Below, in pieces: positions 1-43,944 of a DNA stretch of 64,000 nucleotides (within the stretch, counting starts at the first letter, position 1; each line of letters starts with the position of its first letter). Below the pieces are notes generated by a model that ran no database searches, was not told where the DNA came from, and saw only the letters and a program-made list of their open reading frames with translations. This DNA comes from Cutaneotrichosporon cavernicola. Taxonomy: Eukaryota; Basidiomycota; Tremellomycetes; Trichosporonales; Trichosporonaceae. Made by a program: the position numbers and the translations under genes. The DNA lies in the NCBI RefSeq assembly GCF_030864355.1, contig NC_083397.1, positions 1-64,000 on the forward strand, in the 5' to 3' direction.

Positions 1-468
1 TAACCCCCTAACCCCCTAACCCCCTAACACCCCCCCCTAACCCCCTAACCCCCAACCCCCTAACCCCCTAACCCCCTACCCCCTACCCCCTAACCCCCTA
101 ACCCCCTAACCCCCTAACCCCCTAACCCCCTAACCCCCTAACCCCCTAACCCCCTAACCCCCTAACCCCCTAACCCCCTAACCCCCTAACCCCCTAACCC
201 CCTAACCCCCTAACCCCCTAACCCCCTAACCCCCTAACCCCCTAACCCCCTAACCCCCTAACCCCTAACCCCCTAACCCCCTAACCCCCTAACCCCCTAA
301 CCCCCTAACCCCCTAACCCCCTAACCCCCTAACCCCCTAACCCCCTAACCCCCTAACCCCCTAACCCCCTAACCCCCTAACCCCCTAACCCCCTAACCCC
401 CTAACCCCCTAACCCCCTAACCCCCTAACCCCCTAACCCCCTAACCCCCTAACCCCCTAACCCCCTAA
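1..468. repeat. Left telomere, CCCCCTAA repeats
   Basis: About 55 tandem copies of an 8-bp unit, C-rich on the + strand, so the chromosome end lies to the left. The complement TTAGGGGG is the telomere unit known from Tremellomycetes. Variant units are seen near positions 27-55 (extra or missing C, one lost T), 77-90 (CTACCCCC) and about 260 (four C). The array stops abruptly at 468 against unique sequence that begins with a doubled GGACCGGGT block. Confidence 0.98.
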
Positions 469-14196: not shown

Positions 14197-16395
14197 CTAA
14201 AGGGGTATCTCAACGTCGAGGAGCGGCGCATGCTGAGCAGTACCGAACGTGTCCGTCTCTCCAATGGAGCCCTGTTCGCGCGGCCGCACAATCGTCATCT
14301 TCCAAGCCAGCGCGGGCCGGAACTGGCGTGAGTTGAGCCCGACATACTCCCATCCACTTACAAACATGCACGTGAGGATCTTGTCGTCGGGGACACTGTA
14401 CAGGCGCTTGATGAGCTTGCGGTTCAGGACGCCCGACCGCTCCGCTCGGTCGAACACCTCTTCCGTGTCAAACATGACCTAGCGCATCAGCGTCGTACGG
14501 CGCAGTGACTTACGTCCATGGTCACTTCGAACGGTCCCGAGTTCTTGGACCGTACGACCTTGGCAAGATACCGCAGGGTGTTGGGTGCTGAGTGTAAATT
14601 CGGGGCGAACGCGTCGCCTGTCTCTCGGGGCTTACTAGTTGAGTCCTTCGCCTCGCCGTTGAGGTGGCCATTTGTCTTGTGGCCATTCGCGGCGTGTCCG
14701 TTCGTCGCGTGGCCGTTCGCCGCGCTACCGTTCTGAGAGAAGTTTACGACCTGAGGCTGAGGATAATGAGGGGCGTAGTTGGCGTCACGTTCTGCCACTT
14801 GAGAAGGGGCGACACCCAGCTGCATCACCTCGATGGGCCAATCTGCCGGGTCCGCACATGGCATAAGGTGGTAGACCGAGAAGCGGAATACGGGACCGGC
14901 CGGTTGCTCATGCGGACTGAGCGGAATAGCAAAGTTGCCTCCTGTTGCCAGCTGGCCCGGATCTGCGCTGTCAACTCGACCCAAACGGCCTACTACTCTG
15001 CAACTCAACCACTAGACTCACATGAGTTGTGCAGGCATCCGACGCGGACGTTGTTGGCAATCGCGTTGGCGAGGGACTGGGTCTGCGCGACAACTTCGCC
15101 CATGATGCCGAGCTCGTGGGGCGTGGCCTTTACGGGCTCAAGCTCGCCCATGACGGCGTCGCGGCCGTACACGTGCCAGAGGATACTGGCGGAGCCATCC
15201 TGCAGAGCGGGAAAAAGAGACGCTGTTTGTCAGCACACCACGACGAGGTTACCTAAGTGGCTTACTCGTGTACTCTGCTGCCTTGTCGAGGAAGGCGTCG
15301 ATGCCCTCGATGAGGATCGGGTCGCGAACGCCGCCAATAAACACGGTTCGGTACCCCAGCTGCTGAGCGCCCTCGAGTTTCACCATGTACTCTGTTGTCT
15401 CGAACATTGCGTTGGCGCAGCGAACCCTTCCCCCTGGGAGGGGAGTGTACGTCGCATTGCCAAGGAGAAGTTTGCCGCCGGGGCCATCGAGGATGTCCGG
15501 ACGTGTCTTCTCGTACAGACTGTGCGCCGCTGCCGAGATGGGCGTAACGCTCTCAGTGGGATGGAGAGGCACGAGATCGAAGCTGTCCTCGCGCAGAACG
15601 GCAAGGATAGATCGCGCCTTTGGCCGCGCGCAGATACCGCCGCATTCCTTCCATCAGCTTCGAACCTTCCAGAATAGCTCACAAGAATCTTGCCCATGTG
15701 TCGCGCAGGACCGTAGTTGTCCTTGCTGCCCATGCCATGGTACATTGCCAAAGCGGTGAAGGGTGCAGGGTCGTAGCTCCGCCCGCCGAGGATGATATCC
15801 ACGTCGGGGTGCTCGCGCAGGACTTTGAGGTATGGCTCGGGGCCGATCTGTGCGACAATCTTGACGGTGTTGTCCAGTGCATCCTCAGTAAGTTCAGGTA
15901 CGGGGCCACAAGGCTGAATCTGGCCAGATTGGAGATGGCTTCGTACTACATCCTTGGACACTTCAGTCTTGATCGTCGCGACCTTGAACGAGTAGGCGCT
16001 CGAACCGGCCATTTCTCTGACAACGTTGACAAAGTGGTCAACGGAACGGTCATCACTGTTTTCGATCAGCTAATTGTTCTTCAATTCGCAGCACAAGGGA
16101 CATACCCGCATCCGCCAGACGACGAAATGATGATCTTGACTCCAAGGTGGTGGCACGCTTCGAGCATGGGGCCAAAGTCCCGCACGTAGCTCTCCTTTGC
16201 GCAGATGAATTCGTCGTCGATACCCAGACACGACGGACCACCGTCTGTCGAACCCGCGTCGATGACGACAGCATGGGCGCGGTGCTTAACGATCCCCTCC
16301 CAGAAATCGCTGAGGCGGTAGCCGTACCCGTGAATGGGCGACGTCGTCAGGATTCGCAGCTCGTTCTTCACGTTCGCGTTGTATTGGTTGACCAT
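14197..16395 (-). CDS. AtuA (DUF1446) - DUF4387 fusion protein, 658 aa
   Basis: Six exons: 16395-16106, 16055-15683, 15647-15266, 15222-15022, 14962-14514 and 14478-14197. Introns are 50, 35, 43, 59 and 35 nt and all phases close exactly. Residues 1 to about 460 match the acyclic-terpene-utilisation AtuA family: IDAGSTDGGPSCLG, SSSGGCGDD, GGRSYDPAP, ECGGICARPKARS, AAHSLYEKTRPD, WHVYGRD. A linker of NGH repeats (about 505-530) leads to a DUF4387 domain (LAKVVRSKNSGPFEVTMDV to the C-terminus). In bacteria the two domains are usually separate adjacent genes. AtuA is needed for citronellol/geraniol catabolism in Pseudomonas, but its reaction is unproven. The gene is co-oriented with the ADH gene upstream. 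An alternative start at 16452 would add 19 residues. Confidence 0.88.
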
Positions 16396-16966
16396 GTTGT
16401 GAGGCGTAGGGGTGGGGGGGGTGTTGTATAGCGCTGCGAACAACCCATGCATTGACTATATCGTGCCGCGAGGTCGTTGAGAGTCCCGCAGTCGTGAACT
16501 GTAACTGCCTGACTTTCGACAGCATTGGAATCCGGGATGCACCTTTCCGGCTACCATATCTGCGGCATCTGGGGTGTGGGATGGGATCTGGGATCAACGA
16601 TGCCGCCAGTCCAACTCGGCCGAGATGGGAGTCTGACTTGGCCGCATTGCGAGAGGCTTCGCAACGGGTAGGTCCGAGGACCTTAGTAGATTGCCGCAGG
16701 GGTGGGGCGGTCAGCGGTCCGATGCCCTGCCGATGTCAGCTTGAACCTGCACTGCCTTTGTAACGTTCCTTGTGGTTTTGATTCCTACGCAACTGCAACC
16801 ACCAGCGCTGACTTGCAATGTATGCAGCAGGCCTCGCCCTGTTAGGTCGCTGAACGGCGATGATATTTATGCTCTCTCCAAGTTTAATCATCTACAAGAG
16901 ATATATTGCAATCGCTAATCAAGTGCTGGCCCAATGCATGCCTCCCATATCGTTCTGCATGTGCCC
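16396..16966. promoter_or_regulatory. AtuA upstream region
   Basis: This 571-bp gap separates the ADH stop from the AtuA start. It contains a C/T-rich run of CCCCCCCCACC type on the minus strand (about 16412-16422) close to the start codon. No binding motif can be named with confidence. Confidence 0.35.
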
Positions 16967-18205
16967 CTAATCAACAACAAATACAGTCTTAGCGACCTTG
17001 TTCTGCTCGAACAGCTTATAAAATTCCTCGGTCTCGTCAAAGGAGATGCGGTGTTCCACAAACGTCTTGAACAACTCCCGGTTATCCTGCAACACTTGGA
17101 GCGCGTACGGGAAGAACGTCTTGACGGAACAACGACCGAACTGCAAGCGCAGGCTGCCATTAGCAGGGGTCCTTCAGCCAACGGTCATTCACTCACTTCT
17201 TGCCGTAGAGCTGGGCACCTGGAATGCTGAAGTCATGGGTGTGGACACCACAGCTGCTCACCACGCCGTAATACCGGGCGAGCTTCATCGCTTGGAGGAG
17301 CGCACTCTCATGACCGACAACCTCGAGTACTGCATCCGCTCCCCGTCCCTCCGTAGCCTCAAGGACCGCTGCCTCCAGCTGGTCTGCAGGCAGAGCGATC
17401 GCGCCATGCTTGGTGGCCAGCTCAAGGCGAGACAGAGTAAGGTCAGTCGCAAAGACAGTCTCGAACAGCGTGCACGCTGACGTGATGGCGCAGAGACCGA
17501 CCTGGCGTTAGCGCATGTACCACTGGCCAACTCACGGGACCACAGCCAATAACCACACACACGCCCTCCTTGCGAAGAGGAACGGTCTTGTCGTCGGGAC
17601 GGGCCTCGTCGAGAAGACGGCGTGCGTTCATGGCTGTTGAATACCCGGTGGGCAGGATATCCGTCATGAGAATGAGGAGCTCCTGAGGCAGGTCGGCAGG
17701 GGCCTCAAAGAGACTCGTTTCGGCCAGAGGCATCCTAAAGTATTCGGCCTGGCCACCTGGTACAGCTGGATTGCCAAAGTTTTGCACCTGAACACAGCGC
17801 GCCGGGTACAACTTGTTGCAGAAGAAGCAGTCACCTAACTGTAAGTTCTGAGCGACAGTTCCAAGGCTCACCGCACGAGGTAGAGAATGGTGCAATAACC
17901 ATGTCCCCAACTTTCCACTTCGTGACTCCAGACCCGACCTCGACGATGCGTCCGATCGTCTCGTGTCCGACGATGAAGTCGTACGGCTTAGGCTGGTGCC
18001 CGCGGTACCAGTGCAGGTCCGAGCCTGCCGTCAGGCTTGTTGGCTACGGACACCTACCGCAGAGACCTGCCATGGTGACCTTGATGATGACGTCGGTGTC
18101 CTCTTGGACAGTCGGCGTGGGGCGGTCCTCAACCTTGACGTCGAAAGGTCCCTTCAGGACAACGGCCTTCATCATCGGGGGCAGAGTTGTGGGTGTGACG
18201 GTCAT
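16967..18205 (-). CDS. Zinc-dependent medium-chain alcohol dehydrogenase, 363 aa
   Basis: Five exons: 18205-18058, 18024-17872, 17834-17536, 17501-17197 and 17153-16967. Introns are only 33-43 nt and all phases close. Family hallmarks: GLCGSDLH (catalytic Cys and His environment, about residue 48), GHE at about 68, structural-zinc cysteines in SCGDCFFCNKLYPARC (about 100-116), and the Rossmann motif GCGPVG near 200. The protein ends at FYKLFEQNKVAKTVFVVD. It most resembles the threonine/formaldehyde-type zinc dehydrogenases, NAD(P)-linked oxidation of an alcohol to an aldehyde in the cytosol. Substrate is unknown. It is divergent from the aldehyde dehydrogenase at 19027 across an 821-bp shared promoter, which suggests that the aldehyde is passed to that enzyme. 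Confidence 0.88.
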
Positions 18206-19026
18206 GATGAGCAGAGAGTGAGCAGAGGATGAGCAGAGATCAACCAGGTGTATGTCGTGCGGGAGCTGGCAGCACAGTGTCGTATGTATATCTATGCAAT
18301 GCCTCCAGATCCTCAAGATGGGCAATGAAGCTGGACATCAAGGGTCTTCGGCATCTGGGATTGTTGATTCCCAAGCGGGCCTCTCATCACTATCGGGTCG
18401 GATGAGGCTGGGCCGGATGTACCGCGCTCGACGTCGTCCTCCATTTTGCAGTTTACCAGACAAATCACCATGTCTCCAAGCGATGCTTGCTTGCGCTGAG
18501 ACGTGAAATCAGACTAAGGGGGGCCGCATAGAGGCAGCACACGGAACTGCTGAGCCGTCTCTGTCGTCCGTTCCGAGCTCTCCGATCCGTGCTGACTGCC
18601 AACATCTCGTACGGTATCCACTTACCACCCAGCTTCGTTTCGGCAACATGCGAGCAGTGTCTTTCATTGCGGTTGAGAATCCCGGTAAGATACCGTCAGC
18701 GTGCGCGAGGTGTCGCACGCAGGAGCAGAGGCTGGCTAGGCGAGGTGACAGGCATGAGAGGGCTATTGGACCTTGCCCTTACACAAACGCTTCACGCCCA
18801 TGTCAACAAGCTTGCCGAGCCGTCGCCAGCAGGACAGTGTCCACTCTTCCTGCTTAAGTAGCGAGTCATAAGCCGCCCAAGTTCCTTTTACATTCTGACA
18901 GCCTTCGCTACTCGTGACCTTTCCTCCACGGTGCGCCCTTCAACAGCTCTACGTCTTCTGGGCCACGATCTTCCCCGTCCACTTTCTTCAATCTCGCCCC
19001 GTTACTTTTCAACGACAAGAGCCACC
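18206..19026. promoter_or_regulatory. Shared divergent promoter of ADH and ALDH
   Basis: 821 bp between the two start codons. A CCG pair is spaced as in some Zn2Cys6 sites only by chance as far as I can tell, and no site is asserted. The last 90 bp before the ALDH ATG stay open in frame with the ALDH and encode a basic, Ser/Arg-rich stretch without an ATG (see findings). Confidence 0.4.
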
Positions 19027-20654
19027 ATGGTCCACCCCAACTTCAAGCTCGCCGACTCCTCGTTGCTTATCACGACTGGCTGGATCGCTGACGAGCCTGT
19101 CGCGGCGGCCAGCGGCAAGACGTTTAACGTGGTCGACCCTGCCAACGGTGAAGTCTGGACAACGGCGCCGGCCATGGATGAGATGGACACCGACAAGGCG
19201 ATTGCTGCGGCAGTCGAGGCATTTCCGTCATTCTCGCAGATCTCGGCGCGGCAGCGTGCACGTATGCTTCTCCGTTTCGACGCTCTCGTCCGCGATAACA
19301 AAGAAGACCTTGCTCAGCTCCTCGTCATGGAGTCGGGCAAGGCGCTCATCGAGGCGCGCGCCGAGGTCGACTACGCCGGTGAGTACTTTTTGCAGCGGTG
19401 TGAACCTGGGCGCGAAATGGCCGGCGTTCCTGGCGTTCTACAGTACATCTGGGGCGGAACCTTATGACGGTTAGGAGAGCAACTGACCTCGTAGTAACCT
19501 ACTCGTGGCTCATGGCCGGGGAGGCCGAGCGTATCACGGGGGAGACAATTAAAGCAAACGACAACCCTACTCTCCGCTTCTTCACACAGAGGGTACCCAT
19601 TGGCCCTGTCGCCCTGCTCTGCCCGTGAGTCAGCGTTCATTGCCCAAGCTCATTTGCCAGGTGGAACTTCCCGCTGGTCATCGCTCTGCGCAAGATCTGC
19701 ACTGCCCTGGCGGCGGGCTGCACCATGGTCGTCAAGCCTTCGCCCGAGACCCCCACAACTACTCTCGCTCTTGGTGTCCTTGCCCAGCGCGCCGGCATTC
19801 CTAAGGGTGTCATTAACGTGGTGACAGCTTCGAACCAGACCACGCCCGCTGTGGGGAAGAAACTTTGCGAGGACAAACGCGTCAAGAAGATTAGCTTTAC
19901 TGGCTCGACCCCTATCGGCAAGCTCCTCATGACCCAGTGCGCCTCCTCGCTCAAGAAGATGACCCTCGAGCTCGGCGGTAACGGTGGCTGGGTGGTGTTT
20001 GAAGATGCCGAGCTTGAAAAGGCCGCCGACGCTCTCATGGCCAACAAACTGCGCCACGCTGGACAGGTGTGCGTGTGTGCCAACCGTGTGTTTGTGCAGA
20101 AGGATGTGTTCGACAAGTTTGCCGCTATTGTCGAGGAGCGCATGCGCAAGCTCAAGTTTGGCCACGGCCTTAGCACCGACTCAACCAACGGTGCGATCGC
20201 GACCGAGCGTGGTGCTGCGCGTGCAGTTAGGCTTGTCGAGGATGCGGTCAAGAACGGCGGCAAGCTGGTCATGGGTGGCAAGCGTTTTGGTACTGGGTAC
20301 CTCTTTGAGCCTACACTGGTCCTTGGTGCTAGCAGGGACGCCATGGTGTACCGCGAGGAAATGTTCGCACCTATCGTCTCGCTCTATCCGTTCGAGACCG
20401 AGGACGAGGTCGTCGCTCTCTGCAACAACACGGATATGGGTCTGTCTAACTACGTCTGGACACGCGACATTGGCCGCGCGTGGCGCTGCTTTGAGAAGCT
20501 CGAGAGCGGCACCGTCGCGCTTAACACAGCCAACGCGAACACGGCCGAGAGCCCATTCGGCGGTATCAAGGAGAGTGGTCTCGGCAAGGAGGGCGGCTTC
20601 CACCACGGCGTCGACGAGTTCTGCGTGCTCAAGGTTGCTGCGCTCACTATTTAG
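19027..20654 (+). CDS. Aldehyde dehydrogenase, succinate-semialdehyde type, 491 aa
   Basis: Exons 19027-19378, 19495-19624 and 19661-20654 (introns 116 and 36 nt). The order of motifs is that of NAD(P)-dependent ALDHs: CPWNFPL, AAGCTMVVKPSPETP, SFTGSTPIGK, the catalytic Glu in LELGG (about residue 263), the catalytic Cys in GQVCVCANR (about 297), EEMFAPIV, and SPFGGIKESGLGKEGG near the end. The doubled Cys CVC is characteristic of succinate-semialdehyde dehydrogenases. Residues after LELGGN read GGWVVF rather than the usual APFIVF. It oxidises an aldehyde to the acid. Placement opposite the ADH suggests sequential steps. ATG 19027 is used; the frame is open upstream to 18931 without ATG. Confidence 0.9.
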
Positions 20655-20999
20655 AGAAACTGGCATGTCAGCAGTGTAATCTATGAATATGTCTTCTTGT
20701 CTGTGGCACATGCATGTCGTACACTGATACAATTCTCGTACCCGCAACATACATATCCGTCGTCTCTACACTCACCAGCACTGACTTCACCCCAGGTGGT
20801 AAGCAATGTGTCGCAACTTGACCAGCCAGAGCAGGACGGCTAATGATATATTAAAGACCATGCAAGGTGCCCATGCGACAAAACTGCGAGCACCTCTCTG
20901 GTGACGAGGGCCGAAACTCGAAGCGAGGGCAAAGCCAGCATATAGAGCCCATACAACTGTACATGCGCCAACAATGAATCTTTCTCAATTACAGGATAA
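20655..20999. other. Short convergent intergenic region
   Basis: 345 bp between the 3' ends of the ALDH and regulator genes. Nothing was recognised. Confidence 0.5.
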
Positions 21000-23348
21000 T
21001 TACAACGCCCATAACCCGTCGTTGGATCCATGCCCAAATGAAAATGGGTTCTCGGTGCTGATAGGGGCAGAATCAAGCATATCTAGCAGTAGCTGGTGGT
21101 CCCAAAGGGCACCGTCAAGGCTAACGTCGGCCTGCAGCCATGTCGAAGTCGACGCCTGCTGCTGAGGCAGTGCCGACCCCATAGTCTGTTCCACACTAGC
21201 AGGCTGCGCCAAGTCCTTGACCGTCCGGTCGTCCTTCGTCGCCAAGTCGAGTTGAGTCCGGATCGTCATAATGCCTCGTTTGATGCCCGGACCTTGCGAC
21301 GATGCTTGCTCCAGGATGTCGAGAGAGAGGTGGACTCGCTGGATCGCTTCTTCCCGGATGAAAGCGTTGCCCGTTCGGATGAGTAGGATATCAACGCCGC
21401 TGCCTTGAGCTTAAGTCAAACAGGATGAACGTACGCAGAGATGAAACAGCAGTAGAGAATGAGATAGTGGTGGCACGAGTGACCAAAAGTTCGGCCCCAG
21501 AGTGATAGGACCTCGTGTGTCCCCATTGCAGCATTGCGACAATGGTTAAGTGCAGAGGAGGCGAGTGCAGAACGGTTATTGGAGGTCAATAACGGGCGGT
21601 AGATGAGGATGCAGATCGTATGGTAGAGAAGGCTGGGCGTCAGACCACTAGGACGGTGATAGGTGAACATACTTTAGAATTACTACATTTGCTGGAGGGC
21701 TGCAGCGGGGGAGTGTTGGGCCCTCGATCCTGAGTTCTGAGGGGAGGTTCCTCCGCCACGTCTCTAGCTTGTCCACAGCTGAACGGATGAAAGAGAGAGA
21801 CCGCATGTTTGGGCGGTCAGGCGAGTACATGTTGGTCAATATCGATTCTAAGATGATGTTGAGCTTCGACGAGTGGCGCAGGGTGAATGTCTTCAGAAGC
21901 TTGGTGCTAGGATAGGACTTTGACAACGGAAGAGCTGCACCTGATGGGAGGTGTGGTGTCCACTCTACGGCGTCGTCTGGATCTGCTGGAAGAGAGTCAG
22001 GCGAGAGGCCTGGCCTACAGAGCAGACTTGGCTCTCGTCCAAGCGTCAGGGACATGGTCTTGTCCCAGCAGTACGCTGCAGTTAGACCTCAAAATACGAT
22101 TAACTCACCGCTCCAAAACAGGCGAATACGCATGTCACGGTCCTCGGGCGAGAAACGAGAGTCGTCCTCCACAGGTAAATGCAAGCCCATCTGCAATTAG
22201 CAACCTCCACATCAAAACAACCTGAAATTACCTCCTGCATCATTCGGATAGCCATGCCGGTGAGCATCCACGCCTGGTTGGTCTTGCCGACCGCACTCTG
22301 TCTGCCCGCCAATCCAATGAGCGCTTCTGCTTGTCAGCTGAAACCCGCACTTCAGACCGGCTCACGAATAGTGGGGATACGGGGTGGGCCCATAGTTTCC
22401 TCAGCGAGCATGTTCATGGCGAGACTGACAAACTGCTCGCCCTTGAAGATCCGCTCCCGCTCGTCCATGCCGTATGTAAGGCGAATGCCAGTGATATAAA
22501 TGATGATGAGCAGAAAGTCGGAAAAGTATGGACCATCCAGTGCCATGTCGCCTGTATTATTGCAATCAGCACCGAATTGCGACGTTCGCCTGCTCACGAA
22601 TGAAGATAGGCCTGTGAACGACGGCGTAGACGGGGCTGGCCCAGGAAAAGTAGGCGTCCACCCATACTTCGCCCTCTTCGGCTTTCGCGTATCGATGTCT
22701 CAAGCGTGCAGCGGCACGGAGCTGGTCCTCCGTCCATGACTGTGGACTTCCCCCTTCAAAGAGTGGCGATGATGAGGCCGGTGCGTCCAGTGATCCACGT
22801 TGATCCGGTTCGTCAAACATGCTCAGCTCGCCGTGGTACACTGGGCGAGCTGCTGAGCCGAGGTCGTACTGTGGCCGCCCCAGCTCATCTTCATGGTCGG
22901 GATTGGAGCTGGCCCACGACGGTTGCTGGGTTCGAGGTGCAGAGCTTATCTTCTGCGGCGGCGTCCTGGATCGCGAACGAGACGACACCTTCGCTAGGGC
23001 TTCCAGGCGCCGAAGACGGCGCTCAAAGTCGTCCATGCGTTGTGTCTCTGCCACAGGATCCCGTTTCTTAGGCGCCTTGCGACCTGCAGCCATGCACACC
23101 GTGTTCGTTTCACGACAGGGCTTGCATGGTGTGTTTTGCGGCTCCTCGCACTTGATCTTGCGCTCCCTACAAGCCTTAACACCAGTCAGCCGCTCGTCAA
23201 ATCCCGCTTGTCAAATCCCGCCCCCATGGGGCCGATATCTCTACCATATTGTGGAACTCACCAGGCACGAGTATCCGTACGCCCGTTTCTTGAAGGGACG
23301 AGGCGCATCGTCCATCGTTTCGTCTGGCCTGGATCGAGTATCACTCAT
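21000..23348 (-). CDS. Zn2Cys6 fungal transcription factor, 675 aa
   Basis: Eight exons: 23348-23262, 23174-22598, 22551-22366, 22326-22232, 22190-22109, 22075-21673, 21632-21435 and 21399-21000. All phases close. The first intron splits the zinc cluster; joined, residues about 28-56 show C-x2-C-x6-C-x7-C-x2-C-x6-C with the basic loop CRERKIKC. A linker and likely coiled coil follow (MDDFERRLRRLEALAK). The fungal-specific TF domain is seen as YITGIRLTYG, GRQSAVGKTNQAW, MAIRMMQEMGLH, RFSPEDRDMRIRLFW and WDKTMSLTLGR. A nuclear DNA-binding activator is expected, recognising CGG/CCG half-sites. It is divergent from the MFS permease across 337 bp and probably the pathway-specific regulator of this cluster (inference). 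Intron 1 carries a doubled TCAAATCCCG. Confidence 0.88.
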
Positions 23349-23685
23349 GGTACGTGTACGGTATCTGGGTATCTGGGTTCTGAGTCGGGGCTTGTAGTGT
23401 CTCTTGAAGTTATTGATTTCCGGGATCCGGAGTCCGGAATTGCGGGCTTGGTAATTAAGATCTGGTGGGATATGGGCAAGTGGCGGCGCCTGGGCGGTCG
23501 AGAAAAGCGGGCGTGCCGGTTTGTCACGATCCCGGATTCCAGTGGGGCTACTTCGACCCCACACATCCCTGGACAATTGATGTCAACTAGACAAACAGGA
23601 TATGAGTGTGTGTTATGCACTTTGCTATAAGACGCCCAAGATGGTTACCACGAAATGGAGACAACAACAACGACAGCGTGAGAGC
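23349..23685. promoter_or_regulatory. Shared divergent promoter of regulator and permease
   Basis: 337 bp. It contains a CGG/CCGGA-rich patch near 23421-23440 (GGGATCCGGAGTCCGGAATT) that could hold zinc-cluster half-sites. This is inference from base pattern only. Confidence 0.4.
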
Positions 23686-25332
23686 ATGACTTCAGACTTC
23701 AGCGACAAGGACACGGACGAGAAGCGCGAATTCAACCATGTCGATGAAGCCAAGGAGGATACTATGGTCGAGTACACACCAGTCGAGGAGCGCAAACTGG
23801 TGTGGAAGCTAGGTGAGCTGGTACGCTGACCTGACTAACTGGCAGACCTCATCCTCATCCCGTTTGCAATGATGCTCTACATGAGCGCCTACCTCGGTGC
23901 GTCACTGGCCCTCGTAACTGAGCTGACATCTCAGACCGTGGTAACTTGGGTAACGCGCGTCTCATGGGCCTTGAGAGTGACACACTCGAGAACAGCGACA
24001 CCAACTACTCGATCGCCCTGGTTTGTTTCTACATCAGTTACATCGTCTTCGCAATCCCGGGCACTTTGGCCAGCAAATACATGCTGCCGTCGACATCTCT
24101 AGCCATCGGGTGCGCGTTGTGGTCCATTGCAGCCACATGCATGACCGCTACGTTCAACCCTGCTGGAGTGTTTGTGTGTCGTCTTTTTGTCGGCTTGGGC
24201 GAGGCTATGTTTGGCCAGGCTGTCGCTCTGCTTTTCTCGTTTTGGTACACCAAGCCGGAGCTCGCAAAGAGAGTAGGCATCTTTATCTCTGCCGGTTCGC
24301 TGGCGGGAGCGTTCGGCGGCCTCATCGCATTTGGTATCAACTCGATCCCCAACGCCAAGATCCACCAATGGCGAGTTCTTTTCCTCAGTAAGGCTCGCGA
24401 TCCAGCAAACACGCGCGACCATGCTGAACTTCAGTCGAGGGTCTCCCGGGACTGATCCTTGCGGCCGCAGTCTACCTCTACCTCCCCACCTACCCGGATG
24501 CCAAATCGCGCTACCTTTCAGACCGCGATCGGGAAGTCGCCGCAGCCCGCATGGCCAAGGAAAGCACCAATGAAGGGCACAACGGCATCGACAAACGGGC
24601 GCTCAAGCGTGCCTTTTCCGACTGGAAGGTGTACGTCGTCGCTTTCATGTACATGAGCATGAACGTCAACCTCTCCAGCGTAGGAGGATTCCTGCCCACG
24701 ATCGTCAAAGGGTTAGGATACACGGCTGCTCGTGCCCAACTGTTCACCGTTCCTCCATACGCCGTCGCGCTGGCGGTAACCGTCATTGTGTCCACCATCT
24801 CCGACCGCCTTCAGAGCCGTGGGGTACCGCTTGCCCTGACGTACTGCATCGGCGTTGCTGGGTGGGGCATTCTCTTAGGTCTAGATGCTGCCAGCAAGTC
24901 GTCATCCGTTCTGGGCGCACGTTACTTTGGGGTTATTTGCGTTGTCGCCCCTGCGTACGCGACTATCCCCCTGCAACTGTCCTGGGTTGCCAGCAACAGT
25001 CCTGCCCAGACCCAGCGCGCCGTGGCACTCGGTATGCTCAACACCATTGGACAGTGCGGCAGCATCGTTGGGTCGTTCATCTTCCCTTCCAAAGAAGGCC
25101 CGCAGTATATCCCTGGAGTGGCAGTCAACATTGCTTTCCAGTGCTTTGGAGCAACCGTCGCGATCTTGATGACGCTTTACTACCGGTTCGAAAATGGCCG
25201 CCGCGACCGGCTCGAGGGCGGTCGCCCTGAGGATTCGAGCAACTTGAATGTGCAGGAAGACTTTGACCGTGCAAAGGGTGAGTGTGAAGTTTGGTCCACC
25301 TCTGACCCACAGGCTTCCGGTACGTTATTTAG
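23686..25332 (+). CDS. MFS permease, anion:cation symporter (ACS) family, 497 aa
   Basis: Five exons: 23686-23812, 23846-23896, 23935-24387, 24435-25277 and 25313-25332; introns 33-47 nt. The N-terminal tail is acidic and cytosolic. The first helix (LDLILIPFAMMLYMSAYL) is followed by the ACS hallmark DRGNLGNARLMGL. Further hydrophobic helices follow (about 12 in all), with the typical ACS features GLGEAMFGQAV and FWYTKPELAKRVGIF. The C-terminus FDRAKGFRYVI is standard for Dal5/Tna1-like permeases. These carry small organic anions such as allantoate, nicotinate or carboxylates across the plasma membrane. In this cluster it is the likely importer. In-frame ATGs at 23641 and 23602 could lengthen the N-terminus. 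Confidence 0.88.
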
Positions 25333-25672
25333 GGCCAATTGGGACAGTTGTAGCAGCTGGGCAATGGGAGTGACATGGCTTGGACTCTGAAGCATTCGGC
25401 AATGAAAGTTGGTTGTTCGTGCATGAACCAGTGAATGGGTTGCCTGTACAGTGTATGAGTTGCCTTGAGCTCGTTAACATTTCGACTTGGAGAGTTCTTC
25501 CAGACGAAGTTATGACATGGAATGAGGAGAAACTACAAGCAGGCTAAGCAGGGCGCGTCACTTTAAGAGCTGGCGCGCTGGGAGACTGTGCAGACGGGAT
25601 CTAATGTGGTTTAGACAGTGATTTTAAGCTTCTTAAGATCCTATCCCTCGGATAATTATGTAATCCTCAAAC
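25333..25672. other. Intergenic, nothing recognised
   Basis: 340 bp. It is AT-richer than its surroundings. I searched it for a 5' exon of the BIM1-like gene and found none. Confidence 0.5.
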
Positions 25673-25675
25673 TTG

Positions 25676-26260
25676 CCACCCTCCATAAAGAAGAGTCACA
25701 CTTCTACTGTTGCTGGAAAGTCTTATGAGTTCAAGACCTATGGCGAGTACACCGTCGCCGACCTCTCGGCCGGCCATTACTGCGCCAACGGCCCCGACTT
25801 TGCCGCCCAGGGCTTCAAGGCTGGCGACAAGGCAACGCTCATAGTCGTCTACCAGGCCGATGGTTCCCCGGGGAAGGGCTTCAACAAGCGCTGGAACTTC
25901 CAGTGTGCCGACGTCAAGCTCGTCGACAACTGGAATCAGCCCGAGGGCTTCATGTGCGGCAACTACTATGCGACCAACGAGACCCACGTCAAGGCTGCCG
26001 ACAAGGCCATGGAGTTCACCATCTCGCCGTCGTTGCAGCCCAACGCCGGTCAGGGTGGTAGGCCTGCCGCCGTCCTCGCCAAGATGGAGCCGTCCAAGGC
26101 CAGTGGCATCGGTGCCGGTGTCACTGCCGGTGTCTTCCTCCTCGCCATCGGAGCCCTCTGGGCCACTGGCTTCATGCGGTTCGGCCGCAAGAAGTCGGTC
26201 GCTATCCGCGACGACGCTTCGTCGGCCTCTTCGGTCTCTATCAAGCAGGTTCGCAACTAA
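25676..26260 (+). pseudogene. 5'-truncated BIM1/X325-like copper protein
   Basis: The open frame runs from a TAA near 25659 to the stop at 26260, with no ATG before residue-like position 100 and no signal peptide. The readable part resembles the C-terminal half of copper-acquisition factor BIM1-like (X325, LPMO-related) proteins: GHYCANG, ATLIVVYQAD, the signature FQCADVKLVD, a second Cys in GFMCGN and NETHV. A membrane segment (GVTAGVFLLAIGALWATGF) and a basic tail follow. The N-terminal half, which holds the copper-binding first His after the signal peptide, is absent. Family assignment is by pattern and moderate; the missing start is directly seen. An undetected distant 5' exon is the main alternative. 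Confidence 0.5.
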
Positions 26261-34632: not shown

Positions 34633-35859
34633 ATGACCAACTCTTCATCCTCTTCACTCGTCGTCGGGCTCGAGGCCATTCCCCTCAAGCAGCTTGCAGC
34701 TGTCTCCCACTCCGCGGCCTCTGGCACAGTCATCGAGACAATCCCAGTAGTTCAGCCATCCGAGCTGAATCCCGGAGAAGCACTGGTGAAGCTCCTCTAC
34801 TCGGGCGTGTGTGGGAGCAGCTACCATCAGGCGTCAGACCACTGGGATGAGGGCAAGGGACGCGTGCCGCGGCCTCTCATCTCTGGCGATGAGGGTGTCG
34901 GCACGGTCGTCGCAATCAATGACCCAACCTCGCGCTTCCAGGTTGGGGATACAGGTGGGTTACTGTTCCAGTGTCCCGCTAACCCCGCAGTTGGCATCAA
35001 GTTCGTTGCAGCAACGTGTAACCAGTGCACACTGTGTCTTGCAGGACTCGAGATGGTCTGCCCGCAGGCCAAGTACACCGGACGTAGTGTGAACGGCACC
35101 TTCCAGCAGTAGTACGTACCTCCGCATCTGACAGCTCGACTAACTGTCAGCTCCCTGGCATGGACATCTCAGCTCACCCCCATCCCTCCAAACATGGACC
35201 TTGCCCATGCTGCTCCCATCCTTTGTGCCGGCGTGACCGTTTGGCGGGCGTTGAACGATTCAACGGCACAGCCGGGTGACTGGGTAGCTGTGGCTGGAGC
35301 CGGAGGAGGCCTTGGAAGCCTCGCAGTCCAGTACGCCAAGTATCTCAACATGCGAGTCATCGCGATCGACAGCAAGACCAAGGCGGCGTTCTGCACCGAG
35401 GACCTTGAGGCCGACGCGTTTGTCGACTACGCTGTGCCCAACTTTGCGCACGAGGTCAAGAAGATTGCCGACGGAGTGGGGGTCCAGGCAACCATTCTTT
35501 GCTCCAATGAGCCCACCTCGTATCTCTCTGCAACTGATTACCTCCGTCCAACTGGCAGCGCCATGATCGTCGGTCTACCACCAACCGGCTCCCATGTGCC
35601 CGTGGACTGCCGCAATGCCGTACTAGGCATGCACACCATCCGGGGTTGTTTCGTGGGGACACGCAGTGATGTCATCGATGCCCTCGATATCGTCGCGCGA
35701 GGCAAGGTCGTCCCCAAGGTCACAGTCAAGCCGTTCTCTGCGATCCAGGAGACGTACGACTGCATGAAGGACGGGACGCTGTGCGGCCGCGTTGTTGTGG
35801 ATCGTGAGTGTCAGCTTGCTGTTCGATGTGATGCTAACGGGGCTCCAGTGTGGAAGTAG
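34633..35859 (+). CDS. Yeast-type zinc alcohol dehydrogenase with altered zinc site, 368 aa
   Basis: Four exons: 34633-34954, 34991-35111, 35151-35803 and 35849-35859; the last has only 11 nt and encodes the family ending DLWK. Introns are 36-45 nt. Features: GVCGSSYH, the structural-zinc motif CNQCTLCLAGLEMVC, NGTFQQY, APILCAG (third catalytic ligand), GAGGGLGSLAVQYAK and FVDY. The strongly conserved GHE, whose His binds the catalytic zinc, reads GDE here (SGDEGVGTV, codon GAT). This could weaken or change zinc binding or reflect an unusual activity. Otherwise it is a full-length fermentative-type ADH (class with yeast ADH1), expected in the cytosol. Confidence 0.88.
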
Positions 35860-42175: not shown

Positions 42176-43944
42176 ATGGACTCGGTCAAGGCTTTTGTCG
42201 CCAATCTGACGCCCGAGGCCGTGTCATCCCAGGCCAACATCCTCGCTGGGTCGAGCGTCCTCGGCCTGCTCGCTCATCTCTACTGGCAGCGGTTCGAGCC
42301 CGACCCCATCAGCTATGGCCAGTTCGCCCTCGTCCTCGGTGGAGGTCTAGTCTACTTCTTCCATGCCACTCTCAGATCCCTCACCCTTGCAGCGCTATAC
42401 ACCGCAGAGGTGTTCACGATATTCAACACCATCGTACTCCTGTCCATGGTCATCTACCGCCTCTCACCCTGGCATCCGCTCGCCAAGTATCCCGGTCCGA
42501 CATTGGCCAAAGTCTCCAAACTCTACTGGTGGTACCAGGCCAAGATCGGCCAGACAGGCTACACCCAGGCAGCGTTGCACAAAGAGTACGGAGACTTTGT
42601 GCGCATCGGTCCCAACTGGGTTTCCGTGCGCTCTGCCGATGCCATTCCAATCATATACGGTGGGTCCAAAACTGGGGCTGCCCACGGCCGTGCGCCTTGG
42701 ATGAAGAATGACTGGTGAGCCACTCGTCTTGATTTGACCTGATGAATAGGTACGAGGGTGCTATTCGCGGCGCGACACGCATCAGCGTTCACCAGGAAGT
42801 CAACTTGGATAAGCACCACATTCGCCGCAAGTTGTGGGACAATGGATTCACAGGCAAGGCGCTGGCCGACTACAAACCCGAGATTCTCGAGTTCTGCGAT
42901 AAACTCATACGCAATGTCAATGTGGCGACGGCGCGCGCGGACGCAACGGGCCAAACTCAAACGATCGACATGGGCCTTCAGTCCAGCTACTTTAGCTTTG
43001 ACGTCATGGGCGTACTCGGCTTTGGCGAACCGTTTGGCATGTTGGACGCCGGCGTCAAGCACTTTTACGTCGAGACGCTCGAGAACGCCATGCAAACTCT
43101 CATCCCGTTCCATGAGATTAGCTGGATCCGCATCCTGCTGCGCAAGTTGCTGCCCCTCCCGGAGCGCCTCAAGATTTTTGAGACTCAAAACATGGAGCGC
43201 TTCGAGCGGCGCGCTAAACAGGGCTCGGCTCGCCGCGACCTCTTCACCTACCTTCTTGGCGAGGAGAAGGAGGACACTGGACAGCTGTTCAAGCTCACAC
43301 GCTTGGAGTTGATTGCCGACGCAGGGACCATTGTCGTTGCCGGCTCGGACACGACTTCCTCCCTCCTCACTTGGTTCTGGTACTACAGCACAAAGTATCC
43401 CCAGACTTACAAGGCGTTGCGTTCCGAGCTCTCAACCCTTTCATCCGACCAGCTCACCGACACGACGACTCTATCCAAACTCCCATACCTCAACGCCGCC
43501 CTCAACGAGACCATGCGCATGCAGCCGGCCGTTCCCGGCGGTCTCCGCCGCCTTGTGCCCCCCGGTGGCATCGACATCGAAGGTCATTACATCCCCGAGG
43601 GTACAGTCCTTAGCGTGCCTGCGTACGCGATTCAGCATGACCCCCGTTGGTGGGGCGAGGATTGCGACACGTACCGCCCCGAACGCTGGCTCGACACGAC
43701 CGACAAGTACAACAAGAGCGCGTATCTGCCTTTCAGTTACGGCTCGCGTGGATGCCCCGGCAAGGGCCTCGCGATGGTCGAGGCTCGCCTTGCCGTTGCT
43801 CAGCTCGCCACCCGCTTCGAGTTTTCCTTCCCCTCATCCTTCAACCAGAGCAAGTTTGAGGCCGGCGTGCGCGACCACTTTACGATTCAGAACCCTGCGC
43901 TGCCACTTGTTCCAACTCCGTCTCCGGTCAAGCAGGCGGCGTGA
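42176..43944 (+). CDS. Cytochrome P450 monooxygenase, 577 aa
   Basis: Two exons: 42176-42714 and 42750-43944 (35-nt intron). The N-terminus has three hydrophobic segments within the first 105 residues, more than the single anchor of most P450s and as seen in several basidiomycete families. Then come the Pro-rich hinge (KYPGPTLAK), the I-helix oxygen-binding motif AGSDTTSSLL, ExxR in NETMR, the PERW motif and the haem loop PFSYGSRGCPGKG with its Cys ligand. All catalytic parts are intact. It is an ER membrane enzyme that needs a reductase partner. The substrate is unknown. The glucosyltransferase and secreted gene upstream do not clearly share a pathway with it. Confidence 0.93.

Follow-up and report, generated by a model that had tools for sequence, protein, structure and literature searches.

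We have analysed the first 64,000 nucleotides of contig C5 (NC_083397.1) of the basidiomycete cave yeast Cutaneotrichosporon cavernicola, hereafter the window. Five adjacent genes in it encode a protein that fuses an AtuA to a DUF4387 domain, a zinc-dependent alcohol dehydrogenase (ADH), an aldehyde dehydrogenase (ALDH) resembling succinate-semialdehyde dehydrogenase (SSADH), a Zn2Cys6 transcription factor and an ACS-family permease. By sequence comparison the fused protein is a member of the CmlA/CmlB citramalate-lyase family, and it is distinct from the AtuA of terpene degradation. On these grounds the interpretation of the genes should move from terpene catabolism, as proposed by the initial annotation, to a cluster centred on a CmlAB-type hydroxy-acid lyase. 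Judging from its homologies, we are confident that the fused protein acts as a carbon-carbon lyase of a hydroxy acid in general. The wider explanation, in which the permease, the ADH and ALDH and the regulator are its probable partners, is favoured with less assurance, as it includes a proposed reaction, substrate, order of steps and co-regulation. Citramalate itself is the leading guess for the substrate, if not a safe one, and we hold it to be somewhat doubtful.

Kinship of the fused protein with citramalate lyase

CmlAB, which we know here from the names and titles of its PDB entries (9erq and 9evf), is a bacterial citramalate lyase. Both of its subunits are matched nearly end to end by the fungal protein. 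Residues 13-463 align with residues 5-448 of the 456 in CmlA (a chain of 9erq) at 37% identity (E 3.7e-90), and residues 545-643 align with CmlB, which corresponds to DUF4387 (E 2.1e-20). Whereas CmlA and CmlB are separate subunits, the fungal counterparts are joined in one chain by a low-complexity repeat linker, and their gene is split by introns. The model of a relative (P0004) matched the folds of CmlA and CmlB when compared with 9evf in a structure search, and nothing except 9evf passed E 0.001. The window protein also keeps 76 of the 81 positions that are at least 98% conserved in 54 bacterial proteins, so that the chemistry of the family is likely to have been retained.

The neighbourhoods of bacterial homologues were surveyed at the best 80 of 570 confirmed loci, which are 35-52% identical. 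These loci span 3.9 to 21.9 kb, 44 of them at least 20 kb, and the short ones show little flanking DNA. Among the neighbours are GlmE (30/80), methylaspartate ammonia-lyase (31/80) and class I fumarase (19/80), which together form the route that leads from glutamate to citramalate by way of mesaconate. An excerpt of PMC4682846 places a DUF1446 gene of no assigned role past mal in enterobacteria, and calls it unclear what becomes of citramalate in E. coli O157:H7. The enzyme of PDB entries 9erq and 9evf may fill this gap. A 314-amino-acid protein recurs past DUF4387 in the methylaspartate operons (L061:11701-12642 and its cluster, 24 loci); Pfam gave nothing for its member in L066, nor did NCBIfam at E 1e-20 for the one in L061.

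Homologues were also found in 49 plasmid records, nine of which were examined. The genes near the homologue are diverse: aconitase-type and isocitrate-lyase-type genes in Variovorax and Halomarina, and citrate-synthase-type genes in Cupriavidus. Flavin monooxygenases accompany it in Diaphorobacter, Methylobacterium and Halomarina, while Salmonella has the glutamate mutase route, Neorhizobium a P450 together with a fumarase, and Streptomyces little beyond an MFS transporter and a regulator. On plasmid pHAMBI1141b of Neorhizobium galegae (L122 2944-12192), genes for an ALDH, an aminotransferase, an agmatinase, a P450 and an alcohol dehydrogenase lie by AtuA, DUF4387 and fumarase. N. galegae is a symbiont of Galega, and galegine is a prenylguanidine; this set could serve a pathway of galegine breakdown via 3-methylcrotonate, mesaconate and citramalate.

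The five genes at the chromosome end and their proposed role

The assembly comprises 20.2 Mb in 8 contigs. According to an excerpt of PMC10568926, the genome of C. cavernicola amounts to ~20.2 Mb on seven chromosomes, and its telomeres are of the TTAGGGG type. The window begins within a telomere array, and the cluster lies 14-25 kb from the chromosome end (Table 1). All five genes are present, contiguous and intact, with open spliced frames in models whose splice sites were set by eye. Their adjacency and domain content are thus as first annotated, and so are the two divergent pairs: ADH and ALDH start 821 bp apart, the regulator and permease 292 bp apart.

Table 1. Features of the window, with the evidence on which each rests.
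Feature	Coordinates	Strand	Evidence
Telomere repeat array, TAACCCCC x 59	1..468	+	repeat scan
AtuA-DUF4387 fusion (one-piece CmlA-CmlB, citramalate-lyase-type), 645 aa, 7 exons	14197..16395	-	gene model, Pfam, PDB 9erq chains A and B, conservation
Exons of the AtuA-DUF4387 gene	16395-16106, 16055-15683, 15647-15266, 15222-15022, 14962-14514, 14478-14362, 14322-14197	-	
15-bp tandem repeat, 3.1 copies, coding the NGHA-type low-complexity linker between the AtuA and DUF4387 domains	14679..14724	-	repeat scan and translation
13-mer ATCCCGGATTCCA upstream of the AtuA-DUF4387 gene, candidate shared regulator site	16526..16538	-	
Zinc-dependent medium-chain ADH, 363 aa, 5 exons	16967..18205	-	NCBIfam, PDB relatives
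SSADH-like ALDH, 491 aa, 3 exons	19027..20654	+	NCBIfam, Pfam of exon pieces
Zn2Cys6/Fungal_trans transcription factor, modelled 549 aa; 3' end (21.0-21.4 kb) and last exon uncertain	~21416..23348	-	Pfam
13-mer ATCCCGGATTCCA, second copy, in the regulator/permease intergenic region	23529..23541	+	
ACS-family (MFS) permease, 512 aa, 5 exons	23641..25332	+	Pfam, NCBIfam

The class assignments differ in their precision. In Pfam, the spliced regulator scores 93.0 bits for Fungal_trans and 25.1 bits for Zn_clus. The ADH, which has one exon piece without a Pfam match, was typed via NCBIfam and its PDB relatives; a near-identical entry (P0121) bears PF00107 and PF08240, and across 97% of its length the protein matches CcaverHIS641_0500080 with 100% identity. 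For the ALDH, labelled SSADH-type by the initial annotation, SSADH (TIGR01780) is the best family, and the score of 499.6 bits falls below the curated cut-off of 646.35, so the protein is SSADH-like only. The spliced permease, 99% identical to CcaverHIS631_0500110, scores 107.3 bits for MFS_1, and its best NCBIfam match (TIGR00893) reaches 148.4 bits against a cut-off of 395, which assigns it to no ACS subfamily with a known substrate.

Directly past the permease lies a BIM1-like copper acquisition protein (window 25664-26257). MFS and BIM1-like domains occur together in P0241 (696 aa), a permease model deposited for C. cavernicola, in which the annotation has probably merged two genes. Deeper in the subtelomere there are a zinc-dehydrogenase fragment (35113-35856) and a cytochrome P450 reading frame (42733-43941, 193.8 bits).

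We propose that the cluster would serve to take up and degrade a short, branched di- or tricarboxylic acid, hydroxylated or unsaturated, or an alcohol or aldehyde precursor of such an acid. The ACS permease would import the acid, the zinc ADH and the SSADH-like ALDH would take an alcohol precursor through the aldehyde to the carboxylate, and a postulated hydratase would yield a tertiary hydroxy acid. From a 2-hydroxy acid resembling citramalate, the fused, one-polypeptide CmlAB-type lyase would then release acetate and a 2-oxoacid, which would be pyruvate in the case of citramalate. It would apparently do so without an acyl-carrier subunit, which classical citramalate lyase possesses. Control would lie with the Zn2Cys6 protein, as an activator of at least the lyase gene and of the divergent pair that it forms with the permease.

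The initial annotation had proposed the five genes as a candidate catabolic cluster at the chromosome end. Stripped of its terpene job, this idea is plausible and has modest support from three sides. Firstly, among protein matches from a relative (both JGI entries), one for the lyase (P0108, 82% identity over 47% of the query) and one for the permease (P0348, 86% over 47%) apparently share a contig in this related yeast, as judged from the equal length of the longest contig given for each (31044). Secondly, the 13-mer ATCCCGGATTCCA has just three exact copies in 20.2 Mb, and two of these are the ones upstream of the lyase and between the regulator and permease. The third is at C5:207182, where the frames listed nearby, their domains not scanned, suggested no link. 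In dinucleotide shuffles a shared word of at least this length arose between the lyase and regulator/permease promoters in 5 of 1000 cases, and in random pairs of stretches from the window in 15 of 1945. Two spacings of Zn2Cys6 CGG triplets are common to all three promoters; as this had no shuffle control it is not used as evidence.

Thirdly, on the Klebsiella plasmid NZ_CP138692.1 an operon holds an ALDH, a glucose-1-dehydrogenase-like gene, an ADH, a further ALDH, a fumarase and an SSADH beside AtuA and DUF4387. It thus shares AtuA, DUF4387, ALDHs, ADH and SSADH with the fungal cluster and differs in adding the glucose-1-dehydrogenase-like gene and the fumarase.

Competing explanations

A number of results weigh against the explanation proposed above, some of them touching the substrate and others the unity of the cluster. 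Among the positions that are at least 95% conserved in the citramalate branch of the family, the window protein keeps 90 of 135. A further 25 positions, each at least 85% conserved, set the two branches apart; there the window protein shows the letter of the other branch 17 times, that of the citramalate branch four times and neither four times. Because of these substitutions the substrate may not be citramalate. On average the protein is closer to the other branch (50.2% identity), on which it lies, than to the citramalate branch (41.2%). Class I fumarase (mesaconase, PF05681) has no match in the fungal genome, a further difference from the CmlAB setting; a local mesaconase step was rejected for this reason, class II fumarase not having been searched.

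The phylogeny leads to the same branch. The tree was built with FastTree, without an AtuA root and leaving out L051 and L055, and it used 25 of the 120 proteins listed in our protein search. Together with the window protein these give 26 fungal-type sequences (21 of the 25 carry fungal names, a single one is assigned to a fern and three are without a source name). They form one clan at a support of 0.975 and join 22 bacterial loci at 1.0 (L008-L027, L031 and L057; 20 proteobacterial, two actinobacterial), which are 45-53% identical to the window protein over the trimmed domain. An NtaA/DmoA-type flavin mononucleotide (FMN) monooxygenase is encoded in 21 of these 22 loci, the remaining one (L026) being cut off at the start of AtuA, and MmgE/PrpD in 16. 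None of them is a glutamate-mutase locus, with methylaspartate ammonia-lyase (MAL) and GlmE in 0/22. Flavin reductase (14/22), SSADH (4/22) and iron ADH (3/22) are also seen. Unlike the fungal cluster, these closest bacterial relatives have separate subunits and a nearby NtaA, often with LysR and TctC or MFS genes.

These neighbourhoods suggest another source for the substrate. The lyase could cleave a different hydroxy acid, made by an NtaA/DmoA-type flavin monooxygenase, with the local ADH and ALDH acting on the aldehyde product. The candidate partner in the fungus is a fusion at C3:37884-35590 (L101/L102), ~36 kb in from the contig start. This intronless open reading frame has 765 codons and combines a flavin-reductase-like part with an NtaA-type FMN monooxygenase. 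NtaA-type genes also adjoin more distant AtuA-DUF4387 pairs on plasmids, and the fungal genome has a single NtaA locus and a single MmgE/PrpD locus, the latter at C5:1835949, on the chromosome of the cluster and far away from it. Over the monooxygenase domain, identity between the fungal NtaA and the AtuA-linked NtaA proteins is 32-38%, but this is ordinary in so broad a family. Furthermore, NtaA was rejected as a member of the cluster, as the one locus found lies near the beginning of contig C3. On balance we think an NtaA-dependent substrate unlikely, while taking it seriously.

The unity of the cluster is the second point of doubt. Among the 120 matches listed, the ADH is not seen on the relative's contig, and the Klebsiella ADH is just 24% identical to the fungal one. 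With one mismatch allowed, the 13-mer has 21 copies in the genome, compared with 12 for a reversed control; a shared 13-mer in any of the three promoter pairs arises in 19 of 1000 dinucleotide shuffles, and none is present in the ADH/ALDH promoter even when two mismatches are allowed. The ALDH may not be dedicated to the cluster, given a paralogue at C2:219950-221563 (78-86% identity by segment). This paralogue adjoins another ACS-like piece and a multicopper-oxidase-like frame, both read by eye, and no AtuA match lies within the 20 kb examined around it.

Could the five genes then be unrelated subtelomeric metabolic genes, drawn from expanded families and brought together by chance without a joint function? 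The families concerned are indeed large, with 80 ACS-type, 25 ALDH-type and 27 ADH-type matched stretches genome-wide, cluster exons included, and the paralogue on C2 has no AtuA neighbour in the stretch examined. Against this stand the apparent co-location of lyase and permease in the relative and the rarity of the 13-mer, so that we consider a chance neighbourhood improbable, if worth keeping in mind.

Finally, the initial annotation suggested a route for acyclic terpenes (citronellol and geraniol), with AtuA acting as in Pseudomonas after oxidation by ADH and ALDH. The family is indeed labelled acyclic terpene utilisation AtuA by Pfam and NCBI, and the window protein scores 51.5 bits against PF07287, above the cut-off of 22.8. 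Its stronger Pfam match is the C-terminal DUF4387 (124.3 bits), and AtuA_ferredoxin (PF23544) was absent in the same scan. For comparison, a genuine atu operon is found at Pseudomonas G001:C21, in a genome that also holds one of the homologue loci (L014). The Pfam order there is AtuA, SDR, carboxyltransferase, acyl-CoA dehydrogenase, enoyl-CoA hydratase, biotin carboxylase and SDR, which we take to be the order of atuA to atuG. The AtuA of this operon scores 501.7 bits against PF07287, and its domains are the reverse of those in the window protein: a C-terminal AtuA_ferredoxin and no DUF4387. BLASTP did not align the two proteins with each other at E <=0.01, as against 37% identity over 453 aa to CmlA, and the window protein was rejected as an AtuA of the atu operon. 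The likeness is one of a broad Pfam name.

Two genuine AtuA-type genes do occur elsewhere in the fungal genome, on C4 (425.3 bits in the scanned frame, 451.2 bits in the genome search) and on C3 (429.9 bits, with AtuA_ferredoxin). The window protein has a single short, weak match to the former (45 residues, E 0.006-0.009), and DUF4387 is found in this cluster only, as two exon matches. The AtuA-type gene on C4 (L006 5088-9901) has a CaiB-type CoA-transferase gene ~3 kb downstream, possibly a functional pair. Homologues of AtuC, AtuF and AtuE occur in 0/80 bacterial homologue neighbourhoods, an AtuD-like acyl-CoA dehydrogenase occurs in one of the 80, and the carboxyl-transferase has just three loci in the fungal genome, none within the window. 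The terpene route is thus very hard to sustain, and we set it aside.

The family in other fungi

To the initial annotation, a fungal version at a chromosome end appeared new. As a fungal protein it is not: among the best 120 of 3625 protein matches, 119 carry both AtuA and DUF4387, and the named sources are all fungal save one. The exception is P0003, whose record names the fern Adiantum nelumboides; the AtuA-DUF4387 protein itself is of the typical fungal type, and contamination by a fungus is likely. A CaiB-type CoA-transferase domain (family III) is also present in 50 of the 120 matches listed, a count confirmed from the protein lengths. These CaiB/BaiF-AtuA-DUF4387 triple fusions have the same core (42-54% identity in the best alignment), whereas the window protein is without the transferase. 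In the portions of the earlier literature that we consulted, DUF1446 proteins appear in lists of proteins of no assigned function, and a literature search found no mention of DUF4387.

It is conceivable, as a speculation at present, that a eukaryotic route for branched C5-type dicarboxylates, so far unrecognised, is widespread in fungi. At its core would be a one-piece CmlAB lyase that came from bacteria, probably from proteobacteria. Fusion of this lyase with a CaiB-type CoA-transferase, as seen in many lineages, would yield one polypeptide able to carry out both the transferase and the lyase steps. If true, the triple-fused chain could join steps that citrate-lyase-type complexes divide over their subunits.

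For the annotation of fungal genomes, the results mean that a large protein family bears a misleading terpene name. An enrichment in an excerpt of PMC5595782 is worded as acyclic terpene utilization, for example, and we caution that counts of the AtuA-named family are no basis for terpene catabolism in fungal genomes. The kinship to a structurally solved citramalate lyase gives the fungal family a concrete and testable reaction in its place, and the fused and triple-fused forms hint at the way in which fungi deal with branched dicarboxylates. A convenient site for such a test is the terminal cluster of C. cavernicola, which includes a permease and a regulator of its own.

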